Below, piece by piece: positions 16,718 to 35,868 of a stretch of DNA of 64,000 bases. The translations under genes were made by a program, and so were the position numbers. The notes under the pieces are model-generated. The model was not told the origin of the DNA. It worked only from the letters and a program-made list of their open reading frames with translations, and did no database searches. Positions within the stretch are counted from its first letter, which is position 1. Every line of letters begins with the position of its first letter. This DNA comes from Calorimonas adulescens (GTDB lineage Bacteria; Bacillota; Thermoanaerobacteria; Thermoanaerobacterales; UBA4877): contig NZ_VTPS01000006.1 of NCBI RefSeq assembly GCF_008274215.1, positions 1 through 64,000 of the forward strand, written 5' to 3'.

Positions 16718-17662
16718 TCATTTCCTAAATACAAATAAGGCTTTATAGTTTGTGACAAGTATTTCATTTATAGAACCTCTGCGGCTGCTATTGGAATTTA
16801 TCATACGTTTGGCCTGTATTCGGTGGATATAATAGTTTCTGTAAAGTTCATCAAAGAATTCGTCATTTGGGTTTTCGTTTTTGGGGTCGGAGTTGCTGAG
16901 CATAATCTTAGCGCCTCTTTCATCAAGTCTTTCAAAAAATTCTGCAAGTGCTATTTGCTCTCGATCATCAAAATCAGATTTATTATATGATGTAAAGTTT
17001 GATGTATCATTAAGAGGCCTGTAGGGTGGGTCAAGGTAGACAAAAGTATTGTTTTCGACGTATTTTATACTTTCCCTGTAATCAGCCTCGAAGATTTTAA
17101 CTCTTTGCAGCAAAGCATGGGCTGCATACAAATTATCCTCATCGCATATCGTGGGTTTTTTATAACGTCCTGCTGGTACGTTGAAAAGTCCCTGCTGGTT
17201 TACCCTGTATAGCCCGTTGTAGCATGTTCTGTTTAGAAAAATGAATAATGCTGCCTTTTCGATGTCTGGCCTGGCCTCCTCTATTGGGGTCAAGTTATAA
17301 ACAGACCTTATCTTATAATACATTTTTTCACGTTCTTCAAAGGTGCTTTTTAAATATTCTGCCTCGAGCATTTTGAGTTTATATATCAGCTCGTCAACAC
17401 AATATTTGACAGCATTGTATGAGTTTATAAGGTCCTTATTTATATCAAATATGTATGCTTCTTCTATGTTGTATTTTTGCATAATATCAAATAAAACGGC
17501 ACCACTGCCGACAAATGGTTCTACATATCTCTTAACATTTCCGTTGACTAACTCTTCTGGATAAAATTTCAGAAATGTAGTAAGCAGCTGACTCTTCCCA
17601 CCAGCCCATTTTACGAAAGGCCTGGCCGGTATATCAGTTCTTAAATTCACTATAGCTTCCAT
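16718..17662 (-). CDS. Dam-family (D12 class) DNA adenine-N6 methyltransferase
   Basis: SAM-dependent adenine methyltransferase, 314 residues, alpha class. It has FVKWAGGKSQLL (about 17-28, motif X), VEPFVGSGAVLFD (about 48, motif I) and catalytic FVYLDPPYRPL (about 209-219, motif IV). The set matches M.DpnII/Dam enzymes, which modify GATC; the specificity is inferred. No restriction gene is adjacent, so it is an orphan or a leftover of an R-M pair. It runs opposite to its neighbours. An extended -10 (TGGTATAAT on the minus strand, 17698-17706) lies upstream, and AGG-poor GGGGG precedes the start. Confidence 0.9.
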   Translation of the reverse strand: MEAIVNLRTDIPARPFVKWAGGKSQLLTTFLKFYPEELVNGNVKRYVEPFVGSGAVLFDIMQKYNIEEAYIFDINKDLINSYNAVKYCVDELIYKLKMLEAEYLKSTFEEREKMYYKIRSVYNLTPIEEARPDIEKAALFIFLNRTCYNGLYRVNQQGLFNVPAGRYKKPTICDEDNLYAAHALLQRVKIFEADYRESIKYVENNTFVYLDPPYRPLNDTSNFTSYNKSDFDDREQIALAEFFERLDERGAKIMLSNSDPKNENPNDEFFDELYRNYYIHRIQAKRMINSNSSRRGSINEILVTNYKALFVFRK

Positions 17663-18114: not shown

Positions 18115-18531
18115 ATGAGTAAACCGGATGGCCTTATATGTTGGCTGGAAAGGGATAAGAATAATCCTGAGGGTATAGACAGTATAGCCGCTTCAATAAA
18201 TATGATGAATGAATATACGGATGAATTTATATTAAAGGCGACATTTAAAATAAATGGTTCTGTGCTGATCAAGGGCCAATCTATGGATGAAAATACTCCT
18301 GATTCGGTTCATATACATTCTTTTGGAAATAATAAGTATGTACCTATAATCAGCGGTACAAGTTTGGCCAGCGCTCTTAGAGCCAGAGCATATAGGATAA
18401 TCAATACTATAGGCGCAAGCCAGGACATTGTGGATGGAATATTTGGTTCCCCACGCGAAGAAAGGAAGGATCGTACAGTCGGTAGATTATGGATCAGCGA
18501 GAGTACAGTTGAAGACGCAAGAAAGTCCTGA
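18115..18531 (+). pseudogene. RAMP-superfamily fragment, part 2
   Basis: The frame begins 7 bases after the previous fragment (ATG 18115). About 100 residues in, it carries PIISGTSLASALRARAYRI, a close match to the [I/V]PGSSLKGALR helix near the N-terminus of RAMP proteins, then a DRTVGRLWISES strand. It stops at 18529-18531 where the family would continue. Together with part 1 it suggests a tandem two-RAMP protein or two genes, both decayed. Confidence 0.55.
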
Positions 18532-19205: not shown

Positions 19206-19458
19206 CGATATTTTCAAAGCAGTAGCTGTTGATGTTTGGTTTGATGACGACAAATTATATATTTTGCTAAGTGATGGCCGTGAAATGGGGGTCCCTTTAG
19301 AGTGGTTTCCCAAGCTCAAGAAAGCGACTCCCGAAGAAAAAGCTGATTGGCGTTTGATTGGTGGTGGAATAGGAATACGATGGGAAAAACTTGATGAAGA
19401 TATCTCGATTGAAGGTATTATCCGAGGGAGGGGAGCAGTATATAGGTCTATCAATTAA
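19189..19458 (+). CDS. DUF2442 protein
   Basis: An 89-residue protein with DUF2442 features: AVAVDVWFDDDKLYILLSDG, VPLEWFPKL, a central A-T-PEE helix (KKATPEEKADW) and the WEKLDEDISIEGII end. ATG 19189 follows GAGGAGGGA inside the DUF4160 gene, so the pair is translationally coupled. Its stop meets the stop of the convergent transposase remnant. Possible antitoxin-like partner of DUF4160; function not established here. Confidence 0.85.
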   Translation: MSILNNDIFKAVAVDVWFDDDKLYILLSDGREMGVPLEWFPKLKKATPEEKADWRLIGGGIGIRWEKLDEDISIEGIIRGRGAVYRSIN

Positions 19459-19985
19459 AAGAGTTCAGTTTTTACTTTTCCGTATTGAGGAATATTGGGC
19501 AGCCATAGTGCTTGTCTTATCATTTCATAGTCTTTATTTGATTTGCTTTTTAAATAGTATTCTTTATCGCTTTTTATCTTAGTAATTATGATGAGGTTTG
19601 CACTTTTTAATGCCTCATGGATTCTTTCTGTAGATATCTTTACATTCTTTTGCTGTAATATATATTCTAAGTATCTTTGTATTACCAGCGCCAGGTAGCA
19701 AAGAACGAAGTGGCCTTCAATACTTGATTTTGTCAATACAAATATAGGCCTTGCTTCAAAGTTGGATTTTAATACCCTGAAGCTTTCTTCTATCTTCCAT
19801 AGTCCATTAACTGCCTTGCCTGAAGAGCAGACCTTGTAAGCCATGACATATTCAAATCCCATGGATTTTATGTACCTTAAATGTTCACTAAAATTTGATA
19901 CAAGTGATATTAAGCATGTAGGTAGGTAATGAGGGTTCAAATTGTTGAGAAAATGATGGCTATGCAGTAGTGGAAACACAGCCAT
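19455..19985 (-). pseudogene. C-terminal remnant of an IS1634-family (IS4 superfamily) transposase
   Basis: About 170 residues that match the end of IS1634-type DDE transposases: GLWKIEESFRVLKSNFEARP, with the catalytic Glu of IEESFR, then GHFVLCYLALVIQRYLE. The N-terminal two-thirds with both catalytic Asp residues is absent and no terminal repeats were found, so it is immobile. It sits between the DUF4160/DUF2442 pair and the BREX operon and marks insertion and deletion in this block. Confidence 0.8.
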
Positions 19986-20184: not shown

Positions 20185-20664
20185 TTGGATATTGAAGAAA
20201 AAATAATGGGGCTATTGAACAATCTGGATAACTCGTATTATCGGTTGATACTCATTGTAGGCGCAGGCGGCTCTGGAAAGACGGACATTTTGAAATCCAT
20301 TGCTGACCAGTGTGGGACATATGTCAACCTGGGCCTGGCCCTATCCGAGAAGCTCCTGGAGTATCCTATAGAGGAGAGGGCATATAAGGCCACAGACTGT
20401 CTCAGGGAGATATTAAACAGCATAGAGAAGGAACCGCTCCTGATAGATAATATTGAGCTGCTCTTTGCCCCACACCTCAAGTTAAATCCCTTGAGCCTTT
20501 TGAAGCATGAGAGCAGATACAGAAAGATTGTTGCGGCCTGGCCTGGCCGATTTGAAAACGACAAACTCATATATGCCGAGTACGGCCATCCGGAATACAA
20601 GACATACGGCAAGAATGGCATTGAGGTACCCATATTAGACTTAGAGAGGAGACAAATCCAATGA
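20185..20664 (+). CDS. brxF: BREX type 3 P-loop protein BrxF
   Basis: Small ATP-binding protein, 159 residues, first gene of type 3 BREX systems. Walker A is GAGGSGKTD (about residues 26-34) and a Walker B-like PLLIDNIELLF lies near residue 89. It starts with TTG 20185 behind AAGGGGATGG, and no ATG fits. Its stop overlaps brxC by 4 nt (ATGA). Its precise role is unknown; it belongs to the anti-phage exclusion system encoded through 35868. Three GGCCTGGCC repeats lie in its codons. Confidence 0.88.
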   Translation: MDIEEKIMGLLNNLDNSYYRLILIVGAGGSGKTDILKSIADQCGTYVNLGLALSEKLLEYPIEERAYKATDCLREILNSIEKEPLLIDNIELLFAPHLKLNPLSLLKHESRYRKIVAAWPGRFENDKLIYAEYGHPEYKTYGKNGIEVPILDLERRQIQ

Positions 20665-23600
20665 AATACAGCGAACTCATCCATTTTGAACCCATAGAGA
20701 CGGTAACCCAATTAAAGAGCGCCGATGACAAAGAAAAGGCGAAGTCTCTTATAAAGACCTATGTCATGTCCGATAAAATGGCAGATATGATATCAACGAT
20801 AGTAATTCAAAACCTGCGCTTTGATATCCCACAGGATAACAAAGGGGTATTTATAGTGGGCAACTATGGTACGGGCAAGTCCCATCTTATGTCTGTCATC
20901 TCCTCAATAGCAGAACACGAGGATCTTTTAGCACTGGTTGACAACCAGAGGTTTGTAAATGATGCGGCTGCCATTGCAGGTAGGTTTAAGGTATTGAGGA
21001 TAGAGATCGGAGGTGTTGAGACGCCCCTCAGAGATATAATACTAAACAAAATAGAGGAACACCTTAAGTCTCTGGGGATAGAGTACAGATTTCCCTCTGC
21101 CAGTACCATAGCCAACAACAAAGAAAGCCTTATGGAAATGATGTCACTGTTTCAGGATAAATATCCCGACTGCGGCTACCTGATTGTGGTAGACGAACTC
21201 CTCGATTATTTGAGAGGACAGAAGGAACATGAAATGATAAAGAGCCTGGGCTTTTTAAGAGAACTGGGCGAGGTGGCCAGCCTGAGCCGCATAAGGGTTA
21301 TAGCAGGGATACAGGAGGCCCTTTATGATGTTCCATCTTTTCAGAGGATGGCACAGGCTATCAAGAGGGTTATGGATAGGTTTAAACAGTTGTTTATTAC
21401 CCGTGAAGACATATCCTATGTCATATCAAATAGGCTCTTGAAAAAGGATGATAAACAGAAGAAATGGATAAGAAGACACCTTGAGAAATTCAGCCATCTC
21501 TATGAGGATATGTCCAGCAGGATGGACAGATACGTAGAGCTTTTCCCCATACACCCGATGTACATAGATGTCTTTGAAAAGATACTGGTGGTGGAAAAGA
21601 GGGAGATATTAAAGACTGTTTCAAGGGATATAAAGAAGATTATTGATAAAGAGATAGGGGATGAAGAGCCAGACCTGATATCCTTTGACGCCTATTGGAG
21701 TCATCTGAAGGAGGAAAAAGAATTGAGGACCATTCCCGGTGTGCGGGATGTTATAGACAAGGGAGGCAGACTGGAGGATATCATAGACCACTCTTTTCCC
21801 AAGAAGAGTACAAAGCCTCTGGCGTTAAGAATAATTCATGCCATCTGTGTATATCGCCTCACCACAGATGATTACACGAGCCCTATAGGTCTTACGGCAA
21901 AGCAGATGAGGGACGACCTCTGCCTTTATACCCATGTACCGGAGCTGACAGATGATTTTCTTCTTACTACAGTGGAGACCAGCTTGAAAGATATAATAAA
22001 GACGGTAAGCGGTCGGTTTATCGGCCATAATCAGGACAACGGGCAGTATTATCTCGATATCAAAAAGGACATAGACTATGATGCGGAGATAGAAAAAGAG
22101 GCCGATATCTTAGAGGAAGACGACCTTACAGATTCTTATTATGATGCCATATTAAAGGTTATGAAGTGGGATAAATCGGAATATGTACGTGGCATGAAGA
22201 TATGGGAGTATGACCTGCTGTGGGACGAGAAAAAAGTGATGCGGGAGGGCTACCTCTTCCTCGGCACCCCGGCGGATAGACCGACTGCACAGCCTCCCCA
22301 TGACTTTTATATTTACTTCATTAGTCCCTATGAGGGCGGAGGCTACTTTAAAGAGGATAAAGAGGATGAGGTATTCTTTGTATTAAAAAGGATGGATAAG
22401 GAGTTTGAATGGCATATAAAACTATACGCAGCATCCATAAGCCGGGCCAGCAGATCTTCTGCCGATGACAAAAAGATATATAATGCCAAGGCTGAGCAGC
22501 ATATGAAAGACATGGTAAATTGGCTTACAAAAAATGTTAGCAGTGCATTTGAGGTGATATACAGGGGAGTGAATTATGATTTATCTGAGGTTATAAAAGG
22601 CAGCTATGGACTTAAGGAGTTTAAAGACTATATCGACAGGGCGGCTTCAAACCTCCTATCCACATGGTTCAGGTCTGTTGCACCGGAATATCCTTCATTT
22701 AAAACCATAATAACCAAGGAAAACCGTGAGAAGGCGTTTAAGGATGCCTTAGACTACCTTAACGGCAGACATAGCGACAATGGACGCAGGGTCCTTGAGG
22801 CCCTTGAGCTCTTAGATGGGGACGAGGTGAGACCGGGCAAGTCAAGGTATGCCAGGAGTATACTGGAAAAGCTAAATACCCTTGAACCCGGCAGGGTCCT
22901 CAACAGGAAGGATATCCTTACAGAGATAAACGGCTATTATTACGACACTGCATACAGGCTTGAGGCGGAGTGGGTATTTGTTGCCATGGCTGCCCTTGTA
23001 TACAGTGGAGACATTGTAGTATCGATATCAGGAAAGGATTATGATGCTGCCGGTATGGATGAGCTGGCTAAGATGAATCCATTTAATCTTGTAAACTTTG
23101 CATATATTAAGAGGCCGGAGGGCCCTCCCATAGCTGCCATAAGGAAACTCATGGAGTTCCTGGGTTTGCCTCCAGGCCAGGCCAATTACTGGAATACCAG
23201 CGACACGGTAAACTCCGTTTTATCCAGTGCTGATGCTCTGACGAACAGGGTCATTGAGGCACAGAAAATCCTGTCAGCCGGTATCTCAGCCTGGGGCATA
23301 CCGTTTATAGACGACAAGGACATGATTGACTATAAGGAGGATATGAAAAAGCTATCAAATTTCCTGGACGGCCTTAAGAAGTTTAACACACCGGCTAAAT
23401 TGAAGAATTTCAGATATCAAGAAGCCGAGCTTGACGGCTACAAGGAATATGTAAAGATAATAGAAAAGATAGAAAAGCTAAAGGCTTTTAAGGATGAGAT
23501 AGACAGTATGACATCCTATCTCATGCAGGCAGAAGCATATATTGGGGATAAGGATTTGGAGGATGAAGTCAATAACCTTAAGGGTGAGCTCAAAGAGGCA

Positions 23601-24320
23601 GTTAAAAACGCTGCGAAATTGGATTCGAGTTTTATAGCCTCCTATAAGAAAAAACTGCAGTCTGCCATAGAGCGATACATTGACTGGTATATGGATAACC
23701 ACAAAAAATACAGGCTGGATGTAAATGATGATAACAGAAAAAAGAAAATAATGAATGGCGAGATTAAGTCAAAACTGGATGCCCTCAAAAATATTAAGGT
23801 GGTAAGCAGGTCTAAATATTTGGAGCTACTTGACAAATTGTCAAAATTGCAGACATGCTACAGTCTTACCAAGCAGGACATGGAGAAAAGCCCTGTATGC
23901 CATCACTGCGGCTTTAATCCACAGCAGGAAAATATCTTGGTATATGGAGAGCTGGACAAAATAGAAGAGGAAATGTCAGGGCTTCTATACCAGTGGAAAG
24001 ATGTCATACTGGATAATATTGAGGACCCGGCATTGAAAGACGATTTGCAGCTTTTAAACCCTGAACAGAGGAAAATCATCGAGGACTTTAAAAGAAGCAG
24101 GGAGCTACCTGACAGGATTGATTATCAGTTTGTAAGTACCATAGAGACGCTTTTAGAGGGCCTTGACGGGGTGAAAATATCAACAGATGACCTGATAAGC
24201 ACGCTTAAGGGCAATGGTACTCCATACACTATGGATGAGATGTATAGAAGATTTGATGAATATATAAAGAGTAAGACCAGGGGAAAGAACAAGGAAAAAA
24301 TCAGGATTATCATAGAATGA
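20661..24320 (+). CDS. brxC: BREX system ATPase BrxC (DUF6079), first copy
   Basis: Large AAA-type ATPase of the BREX complex, 1219 residues, cytoplasmic. The opening MKYSELIHFEPIETV is the family start. Walker A is GNYGTGKSH (about 67-75), Walker B YLIVVDELLDYLRG (about 173-186), sensor-like RVIAGIQEALYD. A long helical middle precedes a C-terminal C-x14-16-CxxC zinc-ribbon-like knuckle (CYSL to CHHCGF, about 1068-1082). It is coupled on both sides, to brxF and pglX. A second, divergent BrxC follows pglX, which is not the standard type 3 layout. Confidence 0.92.
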   Translation: MKYSELIHFEPIETVTQLKSADDKEKAKSLIKTYVMSDKMADMISTIVIQNLRFDIPQDNKGVFIVGNYGTGKSHLMSVISSIAEHEDLLALVDNQRFVNDAAAIAGRFKVLRIEIGGVETPLRDIILNKIEEHLKSLGIEYRFPSASTIANNKESLMEMMSLFQDKYPDCGYLIVVDELLDYLRGQKEHEMIKSLGFLRELGEVASLSRIRVIAGIQEALYDVPSFQRMAQAIKRVMDRFKQLFITREDISYVISNRLLKKDDKQKKWIRRHLEKFSHLYEDMSSRMDRYVELFPIHPMYIDVFEKILVVEKREILKTVSRDIKKIIDKEIGDEEPDLISFDAYWSHLKEEKELRTIPGVRDVIDKGGRLEDIIDHSFPKKSTKPLALRIIHAICVYRLTTDDYTSPIGLTAKQMRDDLCLYTHVPELTDDFLLTTVETSLKDIIKTVSGRFIGHNQDNGQYYLDIKKDIDYDAEIEKEADILEEDDLTDSYYDAILKVMKWDKSEYVRGMKIWEYDLLWDEKKVMREGYLFLGTPADRPTAQPPHDFYIYFISPYEGGGYFKEDKEDEVFFVLKRMDKEFEWHIKLYAASISRASRSSADDKKIYNAKAEQHMKDMVNWLTKNVSSAFEVIYRGVNYDLSEVIKGSYGLKEFKDYIDRAASNLLSTWFRSVAPEYPSFKTIITKENREKAFKDALDYLNGRHSDNGRRVLEALELLDGDEVRPGKSRYARSILEKLNTLEPGRVLNRKDILTEINGYYYDTAYRLEAEWVFVAMAALVYSGDIVVSISGKDYDAAGMDELAKMNPFNLVNFAYIKRPEGPPIAAIRKLMEFLGLPPGQANYWNTSDTVNSVLSSADALTNRVIEAQKILSAGISAWGIPFIDDKDMIDYKEDMKKLSNFLDGLKKFNTPAKLKNFRYQEAELDGYKEYVKIIEKIEKLKAFKDEIDSMTSYLMQAEAYIGDKDLEDEVNNLKGELKEAVKNAAKLDSSFIASYKKKLQSAIERYIDWYMDNHKKYRLDVNDDNRKKKIMNGEIKSKLDALKNIKVVSRSKYLELLDKLSKLQTCYSLTKQDMEKSPVCHHCGFNPQQENILVYGELDKIEEEMSGLLYQWKDVILDNIEDPALKDDLQLLNPEQRKIIEDFKRSRELPDRIDYQFVSTIETLLEGLDGVKISTDDLISTLKGNGTPYTMDEMYRRFDEYIKSKTRGKNKEKIRIIIE

Positions 24321-24334
24321 CGGGAGGATATCCG

Positions 24335-26902
24335 ATGGAGCTGACAAAAGAAGTGCTGGACAAGGTAAGGCATATAGAGGGTTTTCCCATAGGGAGGGAT
24401 GAGGACATCATAGCCATCTCAGACCCTCCTTACTATACAGCCTGCCCCAATCCATTTATAGACGAGTTTATTGAGAGGTATGGCCGTCCCTATGATGAGG
24501 AAAATGACAGCTATCACAGGGAGCCATTCACTGCTGATATATCTGAGGGCAAGAACGACCCCATATACAATGCCCATTCGTACCACACCAAGGTACCGCA
24601 TAAGGCCATAATGAGGTACATACTACACTACACAGAGCCGGGGGATATTGTATTTGACGGGTTTTGCGGCACAGGCATGACGGGGGTAGCTGCCCAGACG
24701 TGCGGCAATCCAGATCCTGAATTTAAGCTGAAGGTAGAAAACGAGATGAAGGCGAGGGGAGAAGAGGTGAAGTGGGGTGCCAGGAGGGCTATCCTGTGCG
24801 ACCTTTCTCCTGCTGCCACATTCATAGCCTATAACTACAACAGTCCAGTAAATGCTGCGGAGTTTGAGAAAGAGGCCAAGAGGATACTGGATGAGGTAGA
24901 AAAAGAGTGCGGCTGGATGTATGAAACCTATCACACAATAGATGGCGAGATTCAAAATGACGTAAAAGGCATGCCCATAAAGGGCAGGATAAACTACACC
25001 GTGTGGTCGGATGTTTTTGTCTGTCCGAGCTGCAGTGAGGAGGTAGTCTTCTGGGATGCAGCGGTAGACAAGGAGAGCGGCAAAGTCTTGGACGAGTTTG
25101 AGTGTCCTCACTGCGGGGCGTCATTATCCAAGGGAAAGATGGAGAGGGCCTGGAGGACATACTATGATAAGGCCATAGGCGAGACGGTGAGGCAGGCAAA
25201 GCAGGTGCCTGTCCTCATAAACTACACAGCCATGGGCAGGAGATATGAGAAAAAACCCGATGCCTATGACTTAGAGCTCATAGACAGGATAGAGGGCATG
25301 GATATACCATACTGGTATCCGACGGATAAAATACCGAAAGGAGATAAAACAGGAGAACCTCTGAGAATAGGCATAACCCATGTGCACCATTTTTATACAA
25401 AGAGGAATTTATGGGTATTGAGTGCACTGTATGAGAAAGCTAAACAGATTAATGATGATAATATAATTTCTAAATTAATATGGTTACTAAATTCCTCTCA
25501 AGAAAGAACTTCTGTACTAAATAGATATTTATTTGACAGGGGAGGCGGTGGTAAGGTTTCAGGAACTTTGTACATACCTTCACTGGTTAAAGAAAATTCA
25601 GTGTTTCATCATGTAAATCATCGGAAAGATTTAATTATTTCATGTTTAAATGTAAGTAAAAAAAATAATTTTCATAATTGTATATTTACACAAGCATGTT
25701 TTAATACCACTATCCCATCTAATTCCATAGACTATATATTCACTGTTCCTCCATTTGGCGATAACCTTATGTATTCGGAACTCAACTTCCTCTGGGAGGC
25801 ATGGCTTAAGGTCTTTACCAACAATAAACAAGAGGCCATCATAAACAGAGTGCAGGGTAAGGGGCTGCATGAGTACCAGGAGCTCATGGAAAAGTGCTTT
25901 GCTGAGATGTACAGGGTATTGAAGCCGGGCAGATGGATGACCGTGGAGTTTCACAATAGCAAAAACAGCGTCTGGAACGCCATACAGCAAGCCATACTCA
26001 AGGCGGGTTTTGTTATTGCGGATGTGAGGTCTCTGGATAAAAAGCAGGGGAGTTTTAATCAGGTTACGACAACCACTGCCATGAAAAAGGACATGATTAT
26101 CTCGGCATACAAGCCCAGGGCATCATTTGTAGAGGGATTCTTGAATAAGGCAGGCACGGAGGAGGCTGTATGGGATTATGTAAGGCAGCACCTGGAGAAG
26201 CTCCCGGTTGTTGTCGAAACTGACAAGGGAGAGATAGATATCGTAAAGGAGAGGACTCCACAGCTTCTCTACGACAGCATGATAAAGTTCCATGTGATGC
26301 ATGGCCTGGCCATACCCATGGGTGCCGCAGACTTTTACGCCGGGCTTGAAAAACACTTTATAGAAAGAGACGGGATGTATTTCCTTCCCACTCAGGTGAG
26401 CATTTATGACCGAAGGCGGATGATGGAAAATATGTCAGATCAGTTTTCATTCTTAGTCTCTGATGAGAAGACAGCCATCCAGTGGCTTTTGTGGGAACTG
26501 AGCAAAAGCTCTCAGACGTATCAGGATATAGAGCCGAAATTCCTGAAGGCATTCCACCAGGCAAGGCATGAGAGTATGCCTGAGCTTTCAGAGATTCTTG
26601 AAGAAAACTTTCTCAAGGATGAAGAGGGTAGATGGTATATACCCGATCCAAACAAGAAGTCAGATCTGGAAAGACTTAGAGAAAAGACACTGCTAAAACA
26701 GTTCGAGGAGTATAAAAACAGCAGGGGCAGGCTAAAAGAATTCAGGAGTGAGGCCATAAGGGCCGGATTTAAGAAGTGTTGGGGAGATAAAGACTACAAG
26801 ACCATAGCTGATATAGGGGACAGGCTGCCATCCGACATACTGGAAGAGGACGATGTCATCATGATGTATTATGATAATGCCCTCACGAGGTTGGGGCAGT
26901 GA
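24335..26902 (+). CDS. pglX: BREX type 3 DNA methyltransferase PglX (PglXI type)
   Basis: Adenine-type methyltransferase that marks host DNA in BREX, 855 residues from ATG 24335 (GGGAGG 9 nt upstream; ATG 24317 overlaps brxC). SDPPYYTACPNPF lies near residue 23; motif I VFDGFCGTGMTG near 107; a zinc ribbon CPSC...CPHC near 229-262; motif IV-like FTVPPFGDNLMYSELNFLWE near 469. The motif IV triad is normally D/N/S-P-P-F/Y; here the first residue is Val (codon GTT, 25745-25747), one base from GAT. Bases about 25400-25745 are markedly AT-richer than the rest of the gene, as if exchanged. Activity is therefore uncertain. Confidence 0.88.
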   Translation: MELTKEVLDKVRHIEGFPIGRDEDIIAISDPPYYTACPNPFIDEFIERYGRPYDEENDSYHREPFTADISEGKNDPIYNAHSYHTKVPHKAIMRYILHYTEPGDIVFDGFCGTGMTGVAAQTCGNPDPEFKLKVENEMKARGEEVKWGARRAILCDLSPAATFIAYNYNSPVNAAEFEKEAKRILDEVEKECGWMYETYHTIDGEIQNDVKGMPIKGRINYTVWSDVFVCPSCSEEVVFWDAAVDKESGKVLDEFECPHCGASLSKGKMERAWRTYYDKAIGETVRQAKQVPVLINYTAMGRRYEKKPDAYDLELIDRIEGMDIPYWYPTDKIPKGDKTGEPLRIGITHVHHFYTKRNLWVLSALYEKAKQINDDNIISKLIWLLNSSQERTSVLNRYLFDRGGGGKVSGTLYIPSLVKENSVFHHVNHRKDLIISCLNVSKKNNFHNCIFTQACFNTTIPSNSIDYIFTVPPFGDNLMYSELNFLWEAWLKVFTNNKQEAIINRVQGKGLHEYQELMEKCFAEMYRVLKPGRWMTVEFHNSKNSVWNAIQQAILKAGFVIADVRSLDKKQGSFNQVTTTTAMKKDMIISAYKPRASFVEGFLNKAGTEEAVWDYVRQHLEKLPVVVETDKGEIDIVKERTPQLLYDSMIKFHVMHGLAIPMGAADFYAGLEKHFIERDGMYFLPTQVSIYDRRRMMENMSDQFSFLVSDEKTAIQWLLWELSKSSQTYQDIEPKFLKAFHQARHESMPELSEILEENFLKDEEGRWYIPDPNKKSDLERLREKTLLKQFEEYKNSRGRLKEFRSEAIRAGFKKCWGDKDYKTIADIGDRLPSDILEEDDVIMMYYDNALTRLGQ

Positions 26903-26920
26903 TATATTAGGGGGATATTT

Positions 26921-29900
26921 ATGAAGTATCGTGAATTAATGGAATTTGAGCCCATAGAAACTGTGATAAGCCTGAGCGACGCCTCGTCGAACATGGATAA
27001 GGCTGCAGGCATGGTAGAAAGTTATGTGACATCGGAGAAAATGACGAGCAATATAGATAGGCTTATAATCTCAAACCTTAATCTTGATGGCGCTGGCAGA
27101 AAGGGTATATTTGTGGTGGGAAATTATGGTTCAGGTAAGTCTCACCTCATGTCTGTCGTATCCTCCATAGCAGAACATAAGGGACTGCTCGAGCATCTGA
27201 AAGATGAAAAGCTAAGGGAATACATGGACAGGATTGCAGGCAGGTTTGAGGTACTCAGGATAGAGTTGGGGGCTTCACTCATATCGCTCAGGGATGCCGT
27301 GACAAAAGAGATAGAAAAGGATCTGCTCAAGAGAGGCATAACATATAGATTCCCACCGATGGATAGTATACCAAACAATAAGCAGTGCACCTTGGAGATG
27401 ATGTCTCTCTTTAAGAAGCATTATCCTGAAAAAGGCTATCTCATTGTGGTGGATGAGCTTCTGGACTTTATAAGGGGCAAAAAGGAAAATGAGGTAATAC
27501 TGGACCTTAACTACCTGAGGGAAATGGGTGAACTTTGCGGTATCTCGGACATCAGATTTATCACCGGGATACAGGAGCCGCTTTTTGATAACCCATCTTT
27601 TCACTTCCTTGCTGATTCTGTAAGAAGAGTGGCAGACAGGTTTGACCAGTTCATTATAACCAATGAGGACATAGCCAATGTGGTGTCAAAAAGGCTTTTG
27701 AAGAAAAATGAGGAACAGCGAAAAAAGATAAGGGAGCATATATGGCGGTACTGCAAACTCTATACCGGAATGTCAGAAAACCTGGAAAGGTATATAGACC
27801 TGTACCCGATTCACCCAGCATTCTTTGATATGGTGGGCCAGGTTTTAACATCCAGCAACAGAGAGGTATTAAAGGCTGTGTCTGTGATCATGAGAGACAG
27901 GTTGGATAAGGATATCGGGAATGGACCGGGTATAATCTCTTATGATGGGTACTGGGAGTATATACTAAAGACTCCCTCTGCTACAGCAGATCCGGGCATA
28001 AACCGTGTAATGGAAAGATATGCTGACCTGCACAGGATTATTTCAGAGTCATCTATAGATGAGGATAAAAAGAAGGTTATATACAGGATTATAAATGCAT
28101 TGAGCGTGTATAGGCTGGTAGGTGGAGACACAGACAGCGATAGAGGGGTTTCCTTGAATGGACTCATTGATGGGCTCAATCTTTTCCCTGCCATTCATGA
28201 ACTTAAACGAGATGCCCTTAAGGAGTCTGTCAATCAGTGCATTACGGAGCTTATGAAGGCAACAAGGTCCCAGTTTATAATGTTCAACAGGGAAAAAGAG
28301 GAATATTATCTGGACCTGAAGAGGGACATTGATTATGACGCAAAGATTGATGAGGCTGTGGATGTAATAAGCAACGATGCACTCAACAGATACTTTTATG
28401 AGATATTGCTCAATAAATTGGAACTGGCTGAATCGAGCAAAATAGCGGATGCTCACCTGCTGTGGAGTTATAGCCTCATCTGGAAAGAGAAGAATATCGA
28501 AAGAGGAGTCTATATCAAATTTGGACTCCCTGAAGAAAACAGCCCCTTAGGAGATATGCTGTGCGCCCTGTTTGTGGGGCCATATAATGATATAGAACCT
28601 GATCAGATAAGGGATAACTATCTCTATTTTATCATGAGAAACTATGATGAGAAATTTGAAAACGACCTCAAACACTATTCGGCTGCCAGATATCTGTACC
28701 AACTTGCCACAGATGATATCAAGCAGATCTATGATGAAAAGTGCAGGAAATATGCCAGAGGCCTGAATGAATGGCTTGATATACATATGAGAAATGCCTT
28801 TGACGTAAGGTATGGAGGTAAAAAGATCAAAATCGATAGGCAGAATGATAAAATGAGTTTCAAAGAGATCATAGATGAATGCATAAACATGGGCCTGTAT
28901 GACTATATGGCGACAATACTGCCGGATTATCCAAGGTTTAATACCGTCATCACCAATAAAAACAGAAATGAGGTCTTCAGGGCCGCAATTAACTTTTTAT
29001 CAGGAAAGAGGAATGAACTGGGGAAAAAGATACTGGAGTCTTTGGAGCTGTGGGATGGTACGGAAGTCAACATTCATGACTCTAAATATGCTGGATATTT
29101 TCTGGGATTATTGAATGATAAACCGGATGGTATAGCAAGAGAAGATATAATTGACGGCTTTGATCTGGATAGGCGTTTTAGACTGGAGACAGAATGGGTG
29201 GCAGTTGTCCTGCTTTCCTTAGTCTACTGCGGCGAAGCTGTACTAAAGCTGCAAAAGGACGAGATAAATCTCCTGAATATATCAGGTTTAAGCCGATATA
29301 ATGTGTCAGAGATTACTTTATTTTCAGGATATCGTAAAATGGAAAAACCATCTGCAGAGGAGATTGAAAGGATTTACAGAGCAGTTGGCGGCGAAGGCGA
29401 ATGTGTATTTGATGAGAGGTCGGTAAAGTCATTTATTGATGGGATAAATACATTAAAAAAGGATATCAATACCTGCCTGTCAGCTTTATCAGAGGATTTG
29501 AGGGTCTTTGACCTTGCTGTGCTTACTGGTGAGGATGTAAATAAGTATAAGGATGAGCTCAAGCAATTCAACAAGATACTGGACTACTATAAAGAATACA
29601 ATACCCCTATCAGATTGCGAAATATGAAGGTTTATGAGGGTGATGAGGGACATATCTATGAGATGAAAGCCATTATAGACAGGCTTAAGAGCCTTAAACT
29701 GTTAAAAGAGGTTACAAGGTCATACAATGGATATCTCATGGAAGTAGAAAAATGGTATGATGACGAGATCTGGAAAAGTGAATTTGAAGCTATAAAGAAA
29801 GATTTGATGTATAGGGTAAAGGAACCGGGGCTATTAAATGAGGAAACCATAGATGATGTACTGAGGAAGCTGGATGATTTGAAATCAAGATATATACACG

Positions 29901-30529
29901 CTTATATAGACATACACAATAGATGCAGGGCAGATAAAAACTTGGAGAGACTGCGGACAGAGATATTGAATAGCACATATAAGAAACAGATAGATATGCT
30001 CAGGTCTATAAACCTTAAGTTGCCATTAGCAAACTATAATGATTTAATAAACAGTGCTGCTTCCATAAAGGTGTGCCAGGAACTTGACGAGGGAGATATG
30101 CAGGGCAATCCCCTCTGCCCATATTGCAAATTTAAACCAGTTTCCAGAGAATATGTAGATGCAAATACACTGGAAAATATTATAAATGAACTGAAAAAGG
30201 ATTATGATGACTGTGCCAGCCTGATTGTCGATACCCTTGAAGACCCTATGGTGCTGAGCAGGACCCAATATCTGCAGGAGGATGATAAGAAGATTATAAA
30301 AAGTATCATAGAGAATAAAAAGCTGCCCGACGAAATGAATTTGAAAATTGTTAATATCATAAATGAGCTGCTGGACAATTCGGAGATTATAGAAGTGGGT
30401 CTTGAGGATATATTTAAGGATATAAGGGCAAAAAGAAAAATATTTACAGCCGATGAGCTAAAAAATTATCTCATAGGATATGTGGATTCAATTGTAGGCA
30501 ATAAAAAGGTTAAACTTGTGATTAAATGA
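26921..30529 (+). CDS. BREX system ATPase BrxC (DUF6079), second divergent copy
   Basis: A full-length second BrxC, 1202 residues, starting at ATG 26921 with AGGGGGGA upstream and 18 nt after pglX. It keeps every element of the first copy in order: MKYRELMEFEPIETV, Walker A GNYGSGKSH (about 67-75), Walker B YLIVVDELLDFIRG, FITGIQEPLFDNPSF, and the C-terminal CQEL to CPYCKF knuckle (about 1051-1067). Divergence rises sharply after about residue 350, so this is an old paralogue rather than a fresh duplication. Base composition is AT-richer than brxC copy 1. All motifs are intact, so it is likely active. It may form a mixed ring with BrxC1 or serve a different partner. Confidence 0.9.
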   Translation: MKYRELMEFEPIETVISLSDASSNMDKAAGMVESYVTSEKMTSNIDRLIISNLNLDGAGRKGIFVVGNYGSGKSHLMSVVSSIAEHKGLLEHLKDEKLREYMDRIAGRFEVLRIELGASLISLRDAVTKEIEKDLLKRGITYRFPPMDSIPNNKQCTLEMMSLFKKHYPEKGYLIVVDELLDFIRGKKENEVILDLNYLREMGELCGISDIRFITGIQEPLFDNPSFHFLADSVRRVADRFDQFIITNEDIANVVSKRLLKKNEEQRKKIREHIWRYCKLYTGMSENLERYIDLYPIHPAFFDMVGQVLTSSNREVLKAVSVIMRDRLDKDIGNGPGIISYDGYWEYILKTPSATADPGINRVMERYADLHRIISESSIDEDKKKVIYRIINALSVYRLVGGDTDSDRGVSLNGLIDGLNLFPAIHELKRDALKESVNQCITELMKATRSQFIMFNREKEEYYLDLKRDIDYDAKIDEAVDVISNDALNRYFYEILLNKLELAESSKIADAHLLWSYSLIWKEKNIERGVYIKFGLPEENSPLGDMLCALFVGPYNDIEPDQIRDNYLYFIMRNYDEKFENDLKHYSAARYLYQLATDDIKQIYDEKCRKYARGLNEWLDIHMRNAFDVRYGGKKIKIDRQNDKMSFKEIIDECINMGLYDYMATILPDYPRFNTVITNKNRNEVFRAAINFLSGKRNELGKKILESLELWDGTEVNIHDSKYAGYFLGLLNDKPDGIAREDIIDGFDLDRRFRLETEWVAVVLLSLVYCGEAVLKLQKDEINLLNISGLSRYNVSEITLFSGYRKMEKPSAEEIERIYRAVGGEGECVFDERSVKSFIDGINTLKKDINTCLSALSEDLRVFDLAVLTGEDVNKYKDELKQFNKILDYYKEYNTPIRLRNMKVYEGDEGHIYEMKAIIDRLKSLKLLKEVTRSYNGYLMEVEKWYDDEIWKSEFEAIKKDLMYRVKEPGLLNEETIDDVLRKLDDLKSRYIHAYIDIHNRCRADKNLERLRTEILNSTYKKQIDMLRSINLKLPLANYNDLINSAASIKVCQELDEGDMQGNPLCPYCKFKPVSREYVDANTLENIINELKKDYDDCASLIVDTLEDPMVLSRTQYLQEDDKKIIKSIIENKKLPDEMNLKIVNIINELLDNSEIIEVGLEDIFKDIRAKRKIFTADELKNYLIGYVDSIVGNKKVKLVIK

Positions 30530-30542
30530 TAGGATGATTGTT

Positions 30543-33293
30543 ATGGGAGAAAATGTACATTGGGTCTTTGATAGGTGGAATAATAAACCGGTTAAAGCTG
30601 TAGAGAGATATGAGCTTTGGAATACAACAAACTGCTTAGTGTATGACCCAACATCAGGGAGGATATACACCCTGCCGGCTGACGGAGTTGGGGATATAAA
30701 TGAGGGTTATGTTTATGATGAACACAGGATAAGGTATATCCTTGCCGGGGCAAAGCTCAAGGAATTGATAGCAAGACAGAGCATCCTTTCGCCGATTGGC
30801 AGCAATATTATTCCCCTGCCCCATCAGATATATGCCTTAGTGAGGGCAATAAGCTCGAATAGGATAAGGTTTCTACTTGCTGATGAGGTGGGACTGGGGA
30901 AGACTATAGAGGCTGGGCTTATAATGACAGAGATGGAGATGAGAGGGCTTGTAAAGAGGGTGCTAATCGTCACTCCCTCCAGTTTAACTCTGCAATGGAA
31001 GGAAGAGATGCGGCTAAAATTTAACGAGGATTTTCACATTGTCAGGTCAGAGGACCTGACTTCGCTGAAGCATATCTATAATGACAGTAACATATGGACA
31101 GAGTTTGATAAGGTCATATGCTCCATGGATGCTATAAAGCCCATTAAAAGGAGACAGGGCTGGACACAGGAAGAGATCGATGAATACAACAGATTGCGCT
31201 TTAATGACCTGATTGAGGCGGGATGGGATATGGTGATTGTGGATGAGGCGCACAGGCTGGGTGGAAGCAGCGAGGCGGTGGCGAGACATGACCTGGGGGA
31301 GGGCCTGGCCAATTCTGCCACACATTTACTTCTCCTGACTGCCACACCTCATCAGGGGAAGAGTGAACCCTTCTGGAGAGTAATGAAGCTCTTAGACAGT
31401 GAGGCATTTCCCAATGCAAAGGCACTTACGAAGGAACAGGTCTCTCCCTATGTGATTCGCACCGAAAAAAGAAAGGCAATAGATGGCAGTGGTGCACTTC
31501 TATTTAAAAAGAGGGAGACCTTCATGAGGGAAATAGCCTGGGGCCCAAGACATGAGGAACAGTCAAACCTATATAAAGAGGTTACAAAGTATGCCTCTGA
31601 AGGGTACTGCATTGCTAAGAAAGAAAAAAAGGTATTTTTGGGGTTTCTGATGACCCTTATGCAGAGGATGGTCACCAGCAGCACCAGGGCTATAAGGGTA
31701 AGCCTTGAAAAAAGACTATCAGTTTTAAAGGATGAGGCTTCTAATCAGGCGGGACTAAATGAGGAAGAACTTATCGATATGGATGCCCAGGAAGTCTTAG
31801 ATAATGTTATATCCATAGGTTCATATAACACAAAAAAGGAGATAAAGGAGCTGGAGAGGCTTATAAACCTTGCTAAACAGGCTGAGCGTCAGTTTATAGA
31901 TGTAAAGCTGGAATGGCTTGTAGAGGAGATCAACAGTTTAAAACTGAGATTTGGAAACGATGAGAAGATACTTATATTTACGGAGTTTGTTGCCACACAG
32001 GGATATATATGCGACTACCTTATGAGTCACGGGCATAAGGTAGCCCTCATAAACGGTAAAATGGGTATCAATGAAAGGATCAGTTCTCTTGAAGATTTTG
32101 CTGGAGACTGTGACATACTGATATCCACAGATGCCGGTGGAGAGGGACTGAATCTGCAGTTTTGCCACATAGTTATAAACTACGATATGCCCTGGAATCC
32201 GATGAAGATAGAACAAAGGATAGGCAGGGTAGATAGGATAGGGCAGACAAGGGATGTCATAGCGATAAACCTTATGATTCAGGATACTGTGGAATGCAGG
32301 GTGAGAAAGATACTGGAAGACAAACTCAGAGTAATTATGGAAGAGTTTGGTGTGGACAAGATGTCAGATATACTCGATTCTGCTCTGTCGGAAGAGGAAG
32401 CAATGGAGATGGTCATGAATTCTGTTATGAGTCCTGAGGATATAGAGTATTATGTGGATAGGTATATTGAAAATGTGAAGAGCAGATCTAAATATATTAA
32501 GGAGTTTAATGATATCCTCAGCGATGAAAAAGAACTCAGCATAGATATATTGAAAAACATTAAATACGGAGAAATATATGAACTGTTGAGGACGATGTTT
32601 ATAAATTATGTGCTTTATAATGGAGGAACAGTAAAAGAGGGCAAAAATGGTTTTGACATAACCATTGATGGGGTCAGAAGATATAAAGGGGTTACTTTTG
32701 ACCCTTCAGGGAATGGTGCAAATGCTATAACACTAAATCATGAGTATGTTAAAAAGATGATACAAGAACTGCCTGTATATCCTGAAGGGCAGGCTGTACC
32801 GAAGATAAAGATTGATGGCCTGGCCAATGAGGAGGGCTATTGGTCTTTATGGCAGATAACATTAAATGATAGCCCCAATGATGTGAAGATTTTTCCTTTC
32901 TTTATAAATAATGAGGGGAAGATGAGACTCCCGTCTGCAGAGGCCATCTGGGACAGGCTTGTATCTACTGATGCTCACATAACATATGATGGTATGAAGG
33001 AAATTGAGGATGGGGTTTATGGGGAATTATACAAAAGGGTAAGTGAGTATGCCTCAAGCATGTTTTATGAAATTAGAGATGCATATATAAAGAATAGGGA
33101 TGAAGAGAGGAAACGCATGGAATATGCCTTTACCTTGAAGAAGGAAATGATAGGGAGGGTGGGCCTTGAAACGGTTAAGAGACATAGACTGAATGAGTTA
33201 GAAAAAGAGAAAAAGGCATGGGAAGATAAATTTGCAAAATCAAGGAATATTATACCCTCGCTGTACCCATTGTGTATCCTCTACATGGAGTGA
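30543..33293 (+). CDS. brxHII: BREX type 3 helicase BrxHII (SNF2/DEAH superfamily 2)
   Basis: DNA-dependent ATPase/helicase, 916 residues from ATG 30543 (AGGATG upstream; ATG 30534 in frame). Helicase motifs: I ADEVGLGKTIEAGL (about 113-126), II VDEAHRLGG (about 231), III LTATPHQGK, V STDAGGEGLNLQF, VI EQRIGRVDRIGQ (about 556). The C-terminal half has the family's long helical tail. Part of the BREX operon; its stop overlaps the pglZ start region. Confidence 0.92.
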   Translation: MGENVHWVFDRWNNKPVKAVERYELWNTTNCLVYDPTSGRIYTLPADGVGDINEGYVYDEHRIRYILAGAKLKELIARQSILSPIGSNIIPLPHQIYALVRAISSNRIRFLLADEVGLGKTIEAGLIMTEMEMRGLVKRVLIVTPSSLTLQWKEEMRLKFNEDFHIVRSEDLTSLKHIYNDSNIWTEFDKVICSMDAIKPIKRRQGWTQEEIDEYNRLRFNDLIEAGWDMVIVDEAHRLGGSSEAVARHDLGEGLANSATHLLLLTATPHQGKSEPFWRVMKLLDSEAFPNAKALTKEQVSPYVIRTEKRKAIDGSGALLFKKRETFMREIAWGPRHEEQSNLYKEVTKYASEGYCIAKKEKKVFLGFLMTLMQRMVTSSTRAIRVSLEKRLSVLKDEASNQAGLNEEELIDMDAQEVLDNVISIGSYNTKKEIKELERLINLAKQAERQFIDVKLEWLVEEINSLKLRFGNDEKILIFTEFVATQGYICDYLMSHGHKVALINGKMGINERISSLEDFAGDCDILISTDAGGEGLNLQFCHIVINYDMPWNPMKIEQRIGRVDRIGQTRDVIAINLMIQDTVECRVRKILEDKLRVIMEEFGVDKMSDILDSALSEEEAMEMVMNSVMSPEDIEYYVDRYIENVKSRSKYIKEFNDILSDEKELSIDILKNIKYGEIYELLRTMFINYVLYNGGTVKEGKNGFDITIDGVRRYKGVTFDPSGNGANAITLNHEYVKKMIQELPVYPEGQAVPKIKIDGLANEEGYWSLWQITLNDSPNDVKIFPFFINNEGKMRLPSAEAIWDRLVSTDAHITYDGMKEIEDGVYGELYKRVSEYASSMFYEIRDAYIKNRDEERKRMEYAFTLKKEMIGRVGLETVKRHRLNELEKEKKAWEDKFAKSRNIIPSLYPLCILYME

Positions 33294-33298
33294 TGGAT

Positions 33299-35152
33299 AT
33301 GTTTTATGAGGAACTGCTCAACGGGATTTCGTCGAGAAAAGGCCAGATCATAATAATACATGACCCCGATGGCTTTTTCTCGGAGGTTACAGTGTCAGAG
33401 CTTTTTGATGGCAGTATAGATGTACATTATTTTAATGACCCTGACCTATTCAGATACGAATATGAAAGGGATTACAGGCAGCGCAGGGATAACGGCACTC
33501 TGGATAAAGTGTTCATGGTTATATGCAGTAATAATAGGGGTATTCCATATGATGTGTTAAGCAAGGGCAGCCTTGTCGATATGGAGTTAAGCAGGATTTT
33601 TCCGCTTCTTGACAGTAGAGTTATAAGATCGTTAAATCCCTCTCTATTAACGTTGCTTTATGATGTGTATTCCAGATATAACGGGGGAAAGATGACCGCA
33701 GACGAAACATTGGACTTTATTATCTCTGAGGTATTTAACCTGAGCATAGATAAGATAAAGGGTGTTGAGGATTTGATTTCTGCTTTGCTTAACCTTATGT
33801 ATCAGGATAAAATGTTGCCTCCGGATATGATTGAATATATTATAAGGAAACAAAGAATCAATATTGATCCGGAATATATCAGTGACAAAACAGGGCTTAT
33901 GGAGTATCTTCAGAACCAGTGGGCTAAATTTGTAAGCGGTGAAGAATCAATTGACTTTGACAGGCTGAAATTATACATGGACAATCTATTTACCGATGGG
34001 TATTTAAGGCCTTTAGAGGTAGAAAATATGGATGGTATCTCATCATGGATGGCAGCAGGGGTATATGTGGACAGGGCAAAGACCCTTGCCAAAAGGATGC
34101 TGGATATAACCAGGAGGCTTGAGTCGTTGCTTGCTGATGCAAGATCCTATAAGGATTGGTTTGATATTGCCGGTCTGTGGGCTGAAGTGTCAATGATAAG
34201 ACATGATGGCAATATAGATACAGGGGTTGCCAGTGAATTTGAAAGGGTAAGGGATGATGTTGAGACAAAATTTGCAGACTGGCTTTTAAAGCGGTATGGT
34301 AGTTTGCCCTATCTCTCATATGTTTCAGGTCCTGTCATGGTACATCATATACCCTGGTATTTGAAAAGCAGGGCATACCACAATAAGATTGCATTGATAG
34401 TCATGGACGGTATGTCACTTAGTGATTGGACGGTAATAGAGTCATGCTTTAAAGACAAGGAGATGCGATTTCATGATGGCAAATGCTTTGCCTGGATACC
34501 AACCATTACACCGATTTCCAGGAGGGCTATATTTTCAGGGCAGATACCAATGAATTTTATAGGCCAGGACTTCAGCACATATCCTGAGGGCAAAGAATGG
34601 GCGAGATTTTGGAGTGAGGCAGGCTTTGGGCATACAGACATAGCCTATTATAAGTTTATTGACGTACCGGATAAGCTTGAATCGCTAAATTATGATGCAG
34701 ATATAATAGGGGTTGTGATAGACGCTGTAGATAATCTGGCACATTCTTCAAAATTATCTATAGATGGGCTTCATGAAAATTTGAGGCTGTGGATGAAGAA
34801 TGGCCGTTTAGAGAGGTTTATAAGAGAATTAATGGAAAAGAGCTTTGACGTATATTTAACCTCAGACCATGGTAATGTGGCTGCTGTAGGGACAGGTATG
34901 GAACGTGGAGGGTATGTCCCTGATATAGACGGAGAGAGGGTTAGAGTTTATAATAGAGTTAGTGACAGCGGAAATGATTCAGGGCACCATGAAATACGTT
35001 GGCCCGGGTATGGCTTGCCGCAGGGTTATGTATTCTATGTCATGGAGGGCAATGGAGCATATGCACGGAGTGATCAACCTGTTGTTGGACATGGAGGAAT
35101 ATCCATTGAAGAAGTAATTGTACCATTTGTGCACTTGAGAAAGGATGCTTGA
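33299..35152 (+). CDS. pglZ: BREX type 3 alkaline-phosphatase-superfamily protein PglZ
   Basis: Core BREX protein, about 618 residues. The PglZ domain is C-terminal: ALIVMDGMSLSDW (about 366, metal-binding Asp), PTITPISRRAIFSG, YLTSDHGNVAAVG (about 518) and VGHGGISIEEVIVPF (about 594). The N-terminal half is helical and specific to type 3. Start ATG 33299 has GGAGTG 7 nt upstream; ATG 33293 overlaps the helicase stop. Its exact enzymatic role is unknown. Confidence 0.92.
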   Translation: MFYEELLNGISSRKGQIIIIHDPDGFFSEVTVSELFDGSIDVHYFNDPDLFRYEYERDYRQRRDNGTLDKVFMVICSNNRGIPYDVLSKGSLVDMELSRIFPLLDSRVIRSLNPSLLTLLYDVYSRYNGGKMTADETLDFIISEVFNLSIDKIKGVEDLISALLNLMYQDKMLPPDMIEYIIRKQRINIDPEYISDKTGLMEYLQNQWAKFVSGEESIDFDRLKLYMDNLFTDGYLRPLEVENMDGISSWMAAGVYVDRAKTLAKRMLDITRRLESLLADARSYKDWFDIAGLWAEVSMIRHDGNIDTGVASEFERVRDDVETKFADWLLKRYGSLPYLSYVSGPVMVHHIPWYLKSRAYHNKIALIVMDGMSLSDWTVIESCFKDKEMRFHDGKCFAWIPTITPISRRAIFSGQIPMNFIGQDFSTYPEGKEWARFWSEAGFGHTDIAYYKFIDVPDKLESLNYDADIIGVVIDAVDNLAHSSKLSIDGLHENLRLWMKNGRLERFIRELMEKSFDVYLTSDHGNVAAVGTGMERGGYVPDIDGERVRVYNRVSDSGNDSGHHEIRWPGYGLPQGYVFYVMEGNGAYARSDQPVVGHGGISIEEVIVPFVHLRKDA

Positions 35153-35154
35153 AT

Positions 35155-35868
35155 ATGATTAAAAAAGTGGGTTTTAGCAGGGCTTTGAAATTAGAATGGT
35201 TAAATTCTACTGTGGAGATATATGAGAATACCAAAGATTTAGAAACCACACGTAAATTAGTTAAGGAGTATCTTACTTATAAGATAAAGGGAAGAGTATC
35301 TCTCTCAAAATGTACCGGTATGTTGATGGATACATGGGTTGATGTCCCTGATGAATATAGATCGTTTATAAATAAGGGAATTGAATTATATGACGGTTCA
35401 GATTCAGAGCAAAAAATAATATTACACTGGGGAGCTTTAATGGTAGCTTTTCCTATTTTTACCGACATATCCTCAACTATTGGCAGGTTTCTTTACTTAC
35501 ATGATAGTTTTAACGCATCATCAGTAAAAAAGAGGATATACGAACTATGGGGCGAAAGAAGCACTGTGGAGCGTGTAGTAAGATATTCTCTGGTTACAAT
35601 GTCAGATTTTGGGGTAATATCCCGTGATAAAAAGGCCGGCGAATATAAAAGAGGGAAGTGCATTGTAGTTGACAACCCGGAACATAAACTGTTTCTTATC
35701 AACTCTTATATGCTTGCCACCAATAGGAAGACACTGCAGTATGATACCATAGAAGAACAATATCCACTCTTCCCATTTAAAATGAATCTGGCCACCCATG
35801 AGATAAACGGTTCAAACGTTTTGACGCTAAACAGGTTCGACAATCAGACATTTGTTGTAATGAAGTAG
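35155..35868 (+). CDS. brxA: BREX protein BrxA (DUF1819)
   Basis: Last BREX gene, 237 residues from ATG 35155 (AGGATG 7 nt upstream; TTG 35149 in frame). BrxA family features: FSRALKLEWLNSTVEIYE at the N-terminus (the DUF1819 opening with an invariant-looking Arg/Leu helix), HWGALMVAFPIFTDISSTIG, and a winged-helix-like VKKRIYELWGERSTVERVVR segment. BrxA is a small helical DNA-binding component. The stop codon is built into the terminator hairpin. The order brxF-brxC-pglX-[brxC2]-brxH-pglZ-brxA makes the system complete. Confidence 0.85.
   Translation: MIKKVGFSRALKLEWLNSTVEIYENTKDLETTRKLVKEYLTYKIKGRVSLSKCTGMLMDTWVDVPDEYRSFINKGIELYDGSDSEQKIILHWGALMVAFPIFTDISSTIGRFLYLHDSFNASSVKKRIYELWGERSTVERVVRYSLVTMSDFGVISRDKKAGEYKRGKCIVVDNPEHKLFLINSYMLATNRKTLQYDTIEEQYPLFPFKMNLATHEINGSNVLTLNRFDNQTFVVMK

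Follow-up and report, generated by a model that had tools for sequence, protein, structure and literature searches.

A valine opening motif IV of a type III BREX methyltransferase in Calorimonas adulescens, beside a putative exchanged specificity cassette

A type III BREX operon with a second brxC

The stretch of DNA analysed here (the window) comprises 64,000 nucleotides of Calorimonas adulescens, positions 1 to 64,000 of contig NZ_VTPS01000006.1. Between 20185 and 35868 it carries an operon in the order brxF, brxC, pglXI, a second brxC, brxH, pglZ, and brxA: the six genes expected of type III BREX, recognized by PADLOC models and a BREX-3 PglZ, plus one extra. The operon and its neighbors are laid out as follows.

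16718-17662, minus strand: Dam-family methyltransferase (TIGR00571; best PDB match the DpnII methyltransferase, 2dpm)
20185-20664, plus strand: brxF (PADLOC BrxF, 184 bits)
20661-24320, plus strand: brxC, copy 1, in its usual place before pglXI (PADLOC BrxC, 1584 bits, full length)
24317-26902, plus strand: pglXI (BrxXI), type III BREX DNA methyltransferase of 861 aa (PADLOC PDLC02541, 1358 bits)
26921-30529, plus strand: second, divergent brxC (PADLOC BrxC, 1035 bits, full length)
30534-33293, plus strand: brxH, Swi2/Snf2-type helicase (PADLOC BrxHI/BrxHII, 1134 bits)
33272-35152, plus strand: pglZ, BREX-3 type (NF033449 BREX_PglZ_3, 577 bits against a cut-off of 250)
35149-35868, plus strand: brxA (PADLOC BrxA, 235 bits)
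35947-36792: truncated UPF0236 gene, 281 aa (profile positions 7-220 of 400)
37102-38025: beta-class methyltransferase, best solved relative TTHA0409

The position of the first brxC before pglXI agrees with the gene order of relatives. BrxH carries the Pfam domains SNF2-rel_dom and Helicase_C; its best PADLOC model is described as BrxHI, the family name spans BrxHI and BrxHII, and SNF2 is the description reported for BrxHII (PMC12839542). The Brx proteins other than PglXI match their PADLOC models over nearly the whole length. In a query-anchored count of columns invariant among relatives (26-54 relatives per protein, after removal of rows that contain a stop or consist of gaps over more than a quarter of their length), departures number 0 of 8 in BrxF, 1 of 39 in the first BrxC, 0 of 32 in PglZ, 0 of 9 in BrxA, 3 of 118 in BrxH (L134M, V354A, and L492I, all conservative), and 1 of 116 in PglXI (D477V). 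With departures at 5 of 44 such columns, the second BrxC makes the operon less than fully typical. This protein is 34% identical to the first copy and reaches at most 37% full-length identity elsewhere among the matches listed. No second brxC was found in 13 of 13 close neighborhoods, one of which ends inside brxC. A match resembling the second copy occurs at 1e-20 in 47 of 398 genomes of the phylum, the window's included, and among the matches listed (at most two candidates scored a genome) an adjacent brxC pair occurs in the window's genome only, the other double matches being on separate contigs or pieces of one gene.

The earlier note on this DNA had suggested that the two flanking methyltransferases might serve as marking enzymes for the operon, which is probably wrong: neither gene has a tblastn match at 1e-10 in the pglXI loci of relatives, and we discard both as BREX companions. 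The loci compared were those of at least 8 kb with flanks of up to 6 kb, plus the 13 close loci, whose sequence extends some 3 kb past brxF and, for the most part, 2-5 kb or more past brxA. The test is therefore marginal for the upstream gene and fair for the downstream one. No restriction gene was recognized among the neighbors of the Dam-family gene at 18115-18531 and 19455-19985. The short ORF at 18115-18531 has a RAMP-superfamily match (26.6 bits, cut-off 22.1) and is perhaps the remains of a CRISPR-type gene. The truncated UPF0236 gene follows immediately on brxA and separates BREX from the beta-class methyltransferase.

The best stretch of the PDLC02541 match to PglXI covers residues 7-769. 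Translation probably begins at Met7 (24335), since in six relatives an in-frame stop falls on aligned residue 5 or 6. Within the gene the following features bear on function.

24419-24439, plus strand: SDPPYYT, conserved with a variable Asp; not the catalytic motif, from column counts
24653-24676, plus strand: motif I FDGFCGTG, SAM binding, intact, at strand beta-1 (column counts, CcrM profile match, model)
25022-25114, plus strand: cysteines C236, C239, C263, and C266 (zinc finger), in an insert between strands 2 and 3 (invariant columns)
25442-25726, plus strand: AT-rich hypervariable cassette, residues ~376-470, putative variable part of the target recognition domain (GC, identity, pairs)
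25739-25759, plus strand: motif IV, FTVPPFG, F475-G481 (ttc act gtt cct cca ttt ggc, in frame)
25745-25747, plus strand: codon GTT (Val477), which opens motif IV; every relative compared at this column has Asp (translation, columns)

The strong profile match, the SAM motif I, and the four-Cys insert mark the protein as a member of the PglXI family by descent. With the PglXI/BrxXI enzymes described previously (PDLC02541; PMC12839542) it shares, beyond the profile match, a Rossmann core with motif I, the operon context, the long four-Cys insert between strands 2 and 3, and a C-terminal helical part. Unlike them, it opens motif IV with Val rather than Asp and is followed by a second brxC. A 4C zinc finger has been described for BrxXI (PMC12839542); in the insert of the window's protein, Pfam found nothing beyond weak zinc-ribbon matches. 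One relative carries two pglXI genes about 2.3 kb apart, each sharing 51-52% identity with that of the window.

The first residue of motif IV

In the assembly, motif IV of PglXI reads V-P-P-F with a GTT codon, exactly as the earlier note gave it, and the codon also lies, as stated there, at the right edge of an AT-rich block (GC in 150-base windows). Amino-methyltransferases begin motif IV with D, N, or S. By its sequence, the window's PglXI has neither one of these residues, Val477 standing in their place, nor the DPP(F/Y) pattern of a catalytically competent enzyme, its motif being VPPF.

The relatives compared came from a species genome collection (58 loci), genomes of the phylum and relatives, two more classes (26 and 22 genomes), and IMG/VR contigs (9 loci). 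Column counts leave out the distant matches (13, of which 12 gave a row) and the window's own entry; re-fetched neighborhoods and brxC loci were counted once only, and a second, C-terminal match at one locus was omitted. An alignment of the window's protein with 69 homologues (A1), a few with one end truncated, leaves out four proteins with a stop inside the matched stretch, matches spanning fewer than about 750 query residues, and exact duplicates; all of these except the duplicates remain in the counts for column 477 and for SDPPYYT.

All 84 of the other distinct sequences in a first set have Asp at column 477. In an enlarged set, whose 115 rows reduce to 106 distinct relatives, 10 of which do not cover the column, it is Asp in 96 of 96, so that the family alignment proposed as a check has the motif IV Asp invariant and Val in no relative found. 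P478, P479, G481, and N483 are likewise invariant in the enlarged set, and the fourth position of the motif is F in 94 and Y in 2 of the 96. The distant matches, counted apart, have D in 9 and S in 3 of 12 rows, in agreement with the D, N, or S rule. Nine IMG/VR viral contigs also carry PglXI relatives, with 44-62% identity in the best segment, and those covering motif IV have D in 7 of 7. Among the matches listed (101 relatives) there is no further genome of the window's genus, and the one genome of the same family gave no match to PglXI.

As far as sequence and predicted structure tell, FTVPPFG is the catalytic motif IV. The A1 profile matches CcrM (6pbd), a beta-class N6-adenine methyltransferase, at motif I (FDGFCGTG, 23.9 bits), and a second, weak piece (7.6 bits) aligns SIDYIFTDPPFG on SVDLIFADPPYN at motif IV, which puts the catalytic DPPY, weakly for this piece, on DYIFTDPPFG. 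CcrM thus resembles the window's PglXI at motif I and weakly at motif IV, and differs in that its motif IV precedes motif I and its catalytic Asp31 is present. In the AF2 model (mean pLDDT 86.6, pTM 0.77; the other four models 76.3-84.1), motif I falls on strand 1 (111-114), and residue 477 comes immediately behind strand 4 (471-476) of the Rossmann core. This core superposes on the archaeal Trm11 m2G10 (N2-guanosine) methyltransferase with Z 18.0 and an rmsd of 2.5 A over 178 residues, a common fold that is not in itself proof of function, and Foldseek returned Rossmann methyltransferases in general with a query-normalised TM of about 0.1; both comparisons cover residues 26-602 at most, the C-terminal part lying outside them.

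The earlier note had named the N-terminal SDPPYYT, which sits before motif I, as a second candidate for the catalytic site. Its Asp (D36) is D in 84 of 101 relatives and otherwise N (7), Q (3), R (3), S, A, E, or H (1 each); Q, R, A, or E stands there in several enzymes that keep D477 (for example, L004, L007, L017, L083, and L087). Since this residue varies among relatives, it is very unlikely to be the catalytic acid, and with Asp replaced in 17 of 101 and the CcrM match putting DPPY elsewhere, we reject SDPPYYT as the catalytic motif. The same counts bear on whether the Val enzyme could keep useful activity through the backbone groups of motif IV or contacts made by SDPPYYT. The N-terminal motif is well conserved overall (P38 in 101 of 101), and in CcrM, where Asp31 contacts the target N6 amino group, the main-chain carbonyl of the first Pro is reported to contact N6 as well (PMC6787082). 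Against this stand the variability of D36 in enzymes that have D477 and the report that removing the motif IV acid in RlmJ (D164A) abolishes activity, with the same loss for the equivalent changes in EcoDam and EcoRV (PMC3814359); we consider retained activity highly improbable.

The substitution is the one anomaly of the protein. When each member of A1 is compared in turn with the others (columns filled in at least 60 of them), the window's PglXI breaks 1 of 87 otherwise invariant columns, namely D477V, and other members break 0 to 5 of their own. Such perfect conservation elsewhere in pglXI suits an error as well as a recent mutation. The chief alternative is that GTT is an error of sequencing or assembly, or a minority variant that entered the consensus, in which case the real PglXI would be normal and BREX active; the assembly is a 54-contig draft, the operon is otherwise open and conserved, and because everything else in pglXI is perfect, a draft-assembly error is conceivable. 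Errors in modern consensus assemblies are rare, however, and one would have had to strike, by chance, a codon that is among the most constrained in the window. Loss of this gene also appears to occur in relatives, in which pglXI frames are interrupted at L044, L046/L095, L053, L056/L098, L059, L145/L148, and L150, though some of these are possibly assembly faults. On balance, we regard an error as unlikely, while giving it appreciable weight. In the one genome that holds L145 and L148, pglXI lies in two frames, split at residue 359, close to the left border of the cassette described below.

An AT-rich segment ahead of motif IV

GC content falls to 0.24-0.33 over ~25350-25800, against 0.41-0.56 on either side within pglXI (150-base windows). 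Local damage to the window's gene does not account for this block: the cassette (residues ~376-470) has lower GC than the rest of its own gene in 70 of 70 proteins, the window's included, so we reject decay specific to the window in favor of an exchanged segment found across the family. Third-position GC (GC3) is lower in the cassette in 67 of the 70, with a mean difference of -0.22; in the window's gene it is 0.59 in the rest against 0.16 in the cassette. The cassette is the lower of the two also in hosts with a GC3 of 0.8. Cassette GC3 still climbs somewhat with that of the host (slope 0.35), and one exception, L088, barely differs (0.65 against 0.59).

Conservation falls in the same segment. 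Across 75 relatives, mean identity to the window in the four 25-residue blocks of 376-475 is 0.22, 0.47, 0.22, and 0.41, against 0.38-0.95 per block outside it; the variability is uneven, since G416, L418, Y419, and S422 are nearly invariant inside the cassette. Among the 30 pairs most alike elsewhere (0.83-0.98), cassettes are 0.17-0.32 identical in 28; the other two pairs (L032/L047 and L038/L040) share cassettes too, so replacement is not universal. For 30 pairs at least 0.85 identical in the rest, mean cassette identity is 0.29 (0.17-1.00), against 0.83-0.94 in seven control blocks of about equal length; these close pairs come from few clades and are not independent. Pairwise identity in the cassette correlates with that in the rest at 0.18 (control blocks 0.55-0.79), and the nearest neighbor by cassette agrees in 4 of 70 cases, against 18-26 of 70 for the control blocks. 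L027 and L030, whose record titles place them in different phyla, are 62% identical in the cassette against 54% in the core. DNA comparison of 11 close pairs shows identity returning at about codons 461-472, shortly ahead of the motif IV stretch or right where it starts, and the left edge varies by pair between about residues 331 and 375.

A segment that differs between near-identical flanks and is common to otherwise distant genes is what exchange of a target recognition domain (TRD) would leave, and since distant genes share cassettes, fast divergence alone is insufficient. We therefore regard the cassette as probably a horizontally exchanged, variable part of the TRD, which would set the methylated motif. 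The BrxXI TRD has been placed in the insert between strands 2 and 3, with the four-Cys zinc finger at its tip (PMC12839542); because the four Cys are invariant, the part that changes would be the C-terminal portion of the insert, reaching roughly to strand 4. In the main text of PMC12839542, the words recombination, exchange, swap, and AT-rich were not found. Replacement of a specificity segment between related genes is reported as domain movement in the restriction-modification systems of Helicobacter pylori (PMC3077401, PMC3983042); here the cassette lies in a BREX methyltransferase and ends a few codons before motif IV. A silent spare cassette as donor is rejected, a cassette search of the draft genome, which may be incomplete, with E up to 10 having returned only its own gene. 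The window's cassette is nearest to that of L089 (54%), also the nearest core among the A1 proteins, and L089 has Asp at column 477. V477 itself lies about five codons inside the conserved right border of the cassette.

Consequences for methylation and defense

The explanation that we favor, and consider moderately probable from the sequence and from analogy, is a real and recent missense mutation that abolishes methylation and silences BREX without toxicity. A single change of Asp to Val at residue 477 would recently have removed the first catalytic residue of motif IV. The motif IV Asp would normally hydrogen-bond the N6 amino group of the flipped-out adenine and so activate methyl transfer; because Val can neither form this bond nor activate N6, PglXI should bind SAM, and perhaps DNA, without methylating. 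That PglX may not methylate, as the earlier note proposed, is thus supported as the likeliest consequence of the abnormal motif. A recent origin would suit the perfect conservation of the remainder.

For the operon as a whole, the nearest guide is BrxX of Escherichia coli, in which Y511A, a change in motif IV, is reported to abolish DNA binding, methylation, and defense without being toxic, deletion of brxX being likewise non-toxic (PMC11842806). In both cases motif IV of a BREX methyltransferase is affected in an otherwise complete locus. The E. coli case differs in belonging to type I BREX, in its NPPY motif, in which the aromatic residue rather than N/D was changed, and in being an engineered laboratory mutant; because DNA binding is lost too, the defect of Y511A is not purely catalytic. 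What we expect for BREX is thus transferred across types (I to III) and across residues (Tyr to Asp). Since BREX defense in E. coli also needs a working methyltransferase active site, a silent, non-toxic locus would be expected here, its other genes yet to decay. Our literature searches found no type III PglXI mutant by title or start of abstract, and no paper on BREX with phase variation and loss of function. In a Salmonella laboratory strain, BREX (StySA) methylation and restriction are reported lost through changes in pglZ and brxC, with pglX wild-type (PMC9009780). Together, the BrxX mutants, the StySA loss, and the interrupted pglXI genes of relatives favor ordinary loss of a defense gene.

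Alternatively, the substitution may be real and retained, with a catalytically dead PglXI acting as a sensor of DNA sites, in an operon that has no self-mark or another one, perhaps together with the extra BrxC. All genes of the operon are open and conserved apart from residue 477, the second brxC is unusual (0 of 13 close neighborhoods; sole adjacent pair among the matches listed), and BrxX itself is reported to sense BREX sites in E. coli (PMC11842806). Yet the E. coli motif IV mutant loses defense along with methylation, no relative found carries Val that would point to a stable state, and neither flanking methyltransferase was found beside pglXI within the flanks compared in relatives; we consider such a role improbable. 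The cassette is the more secure proposal: an AT-rich segment some 95 residues long, mostly uncoupled from host GC and apparently exchanged between species.

If the base is real, the motif IV Asp would have been lost in nature from a BREX methyltransferase whose operon is otherwise intact. Such a case would serve as a natural experiment on whether a BREX system can do without self-methylation and whether losing it is harmless. The cassette, for its part, supplies borders (~376-470) for the putative specificity part of PglXI, which makes the question of recognition in type III BREX testable.
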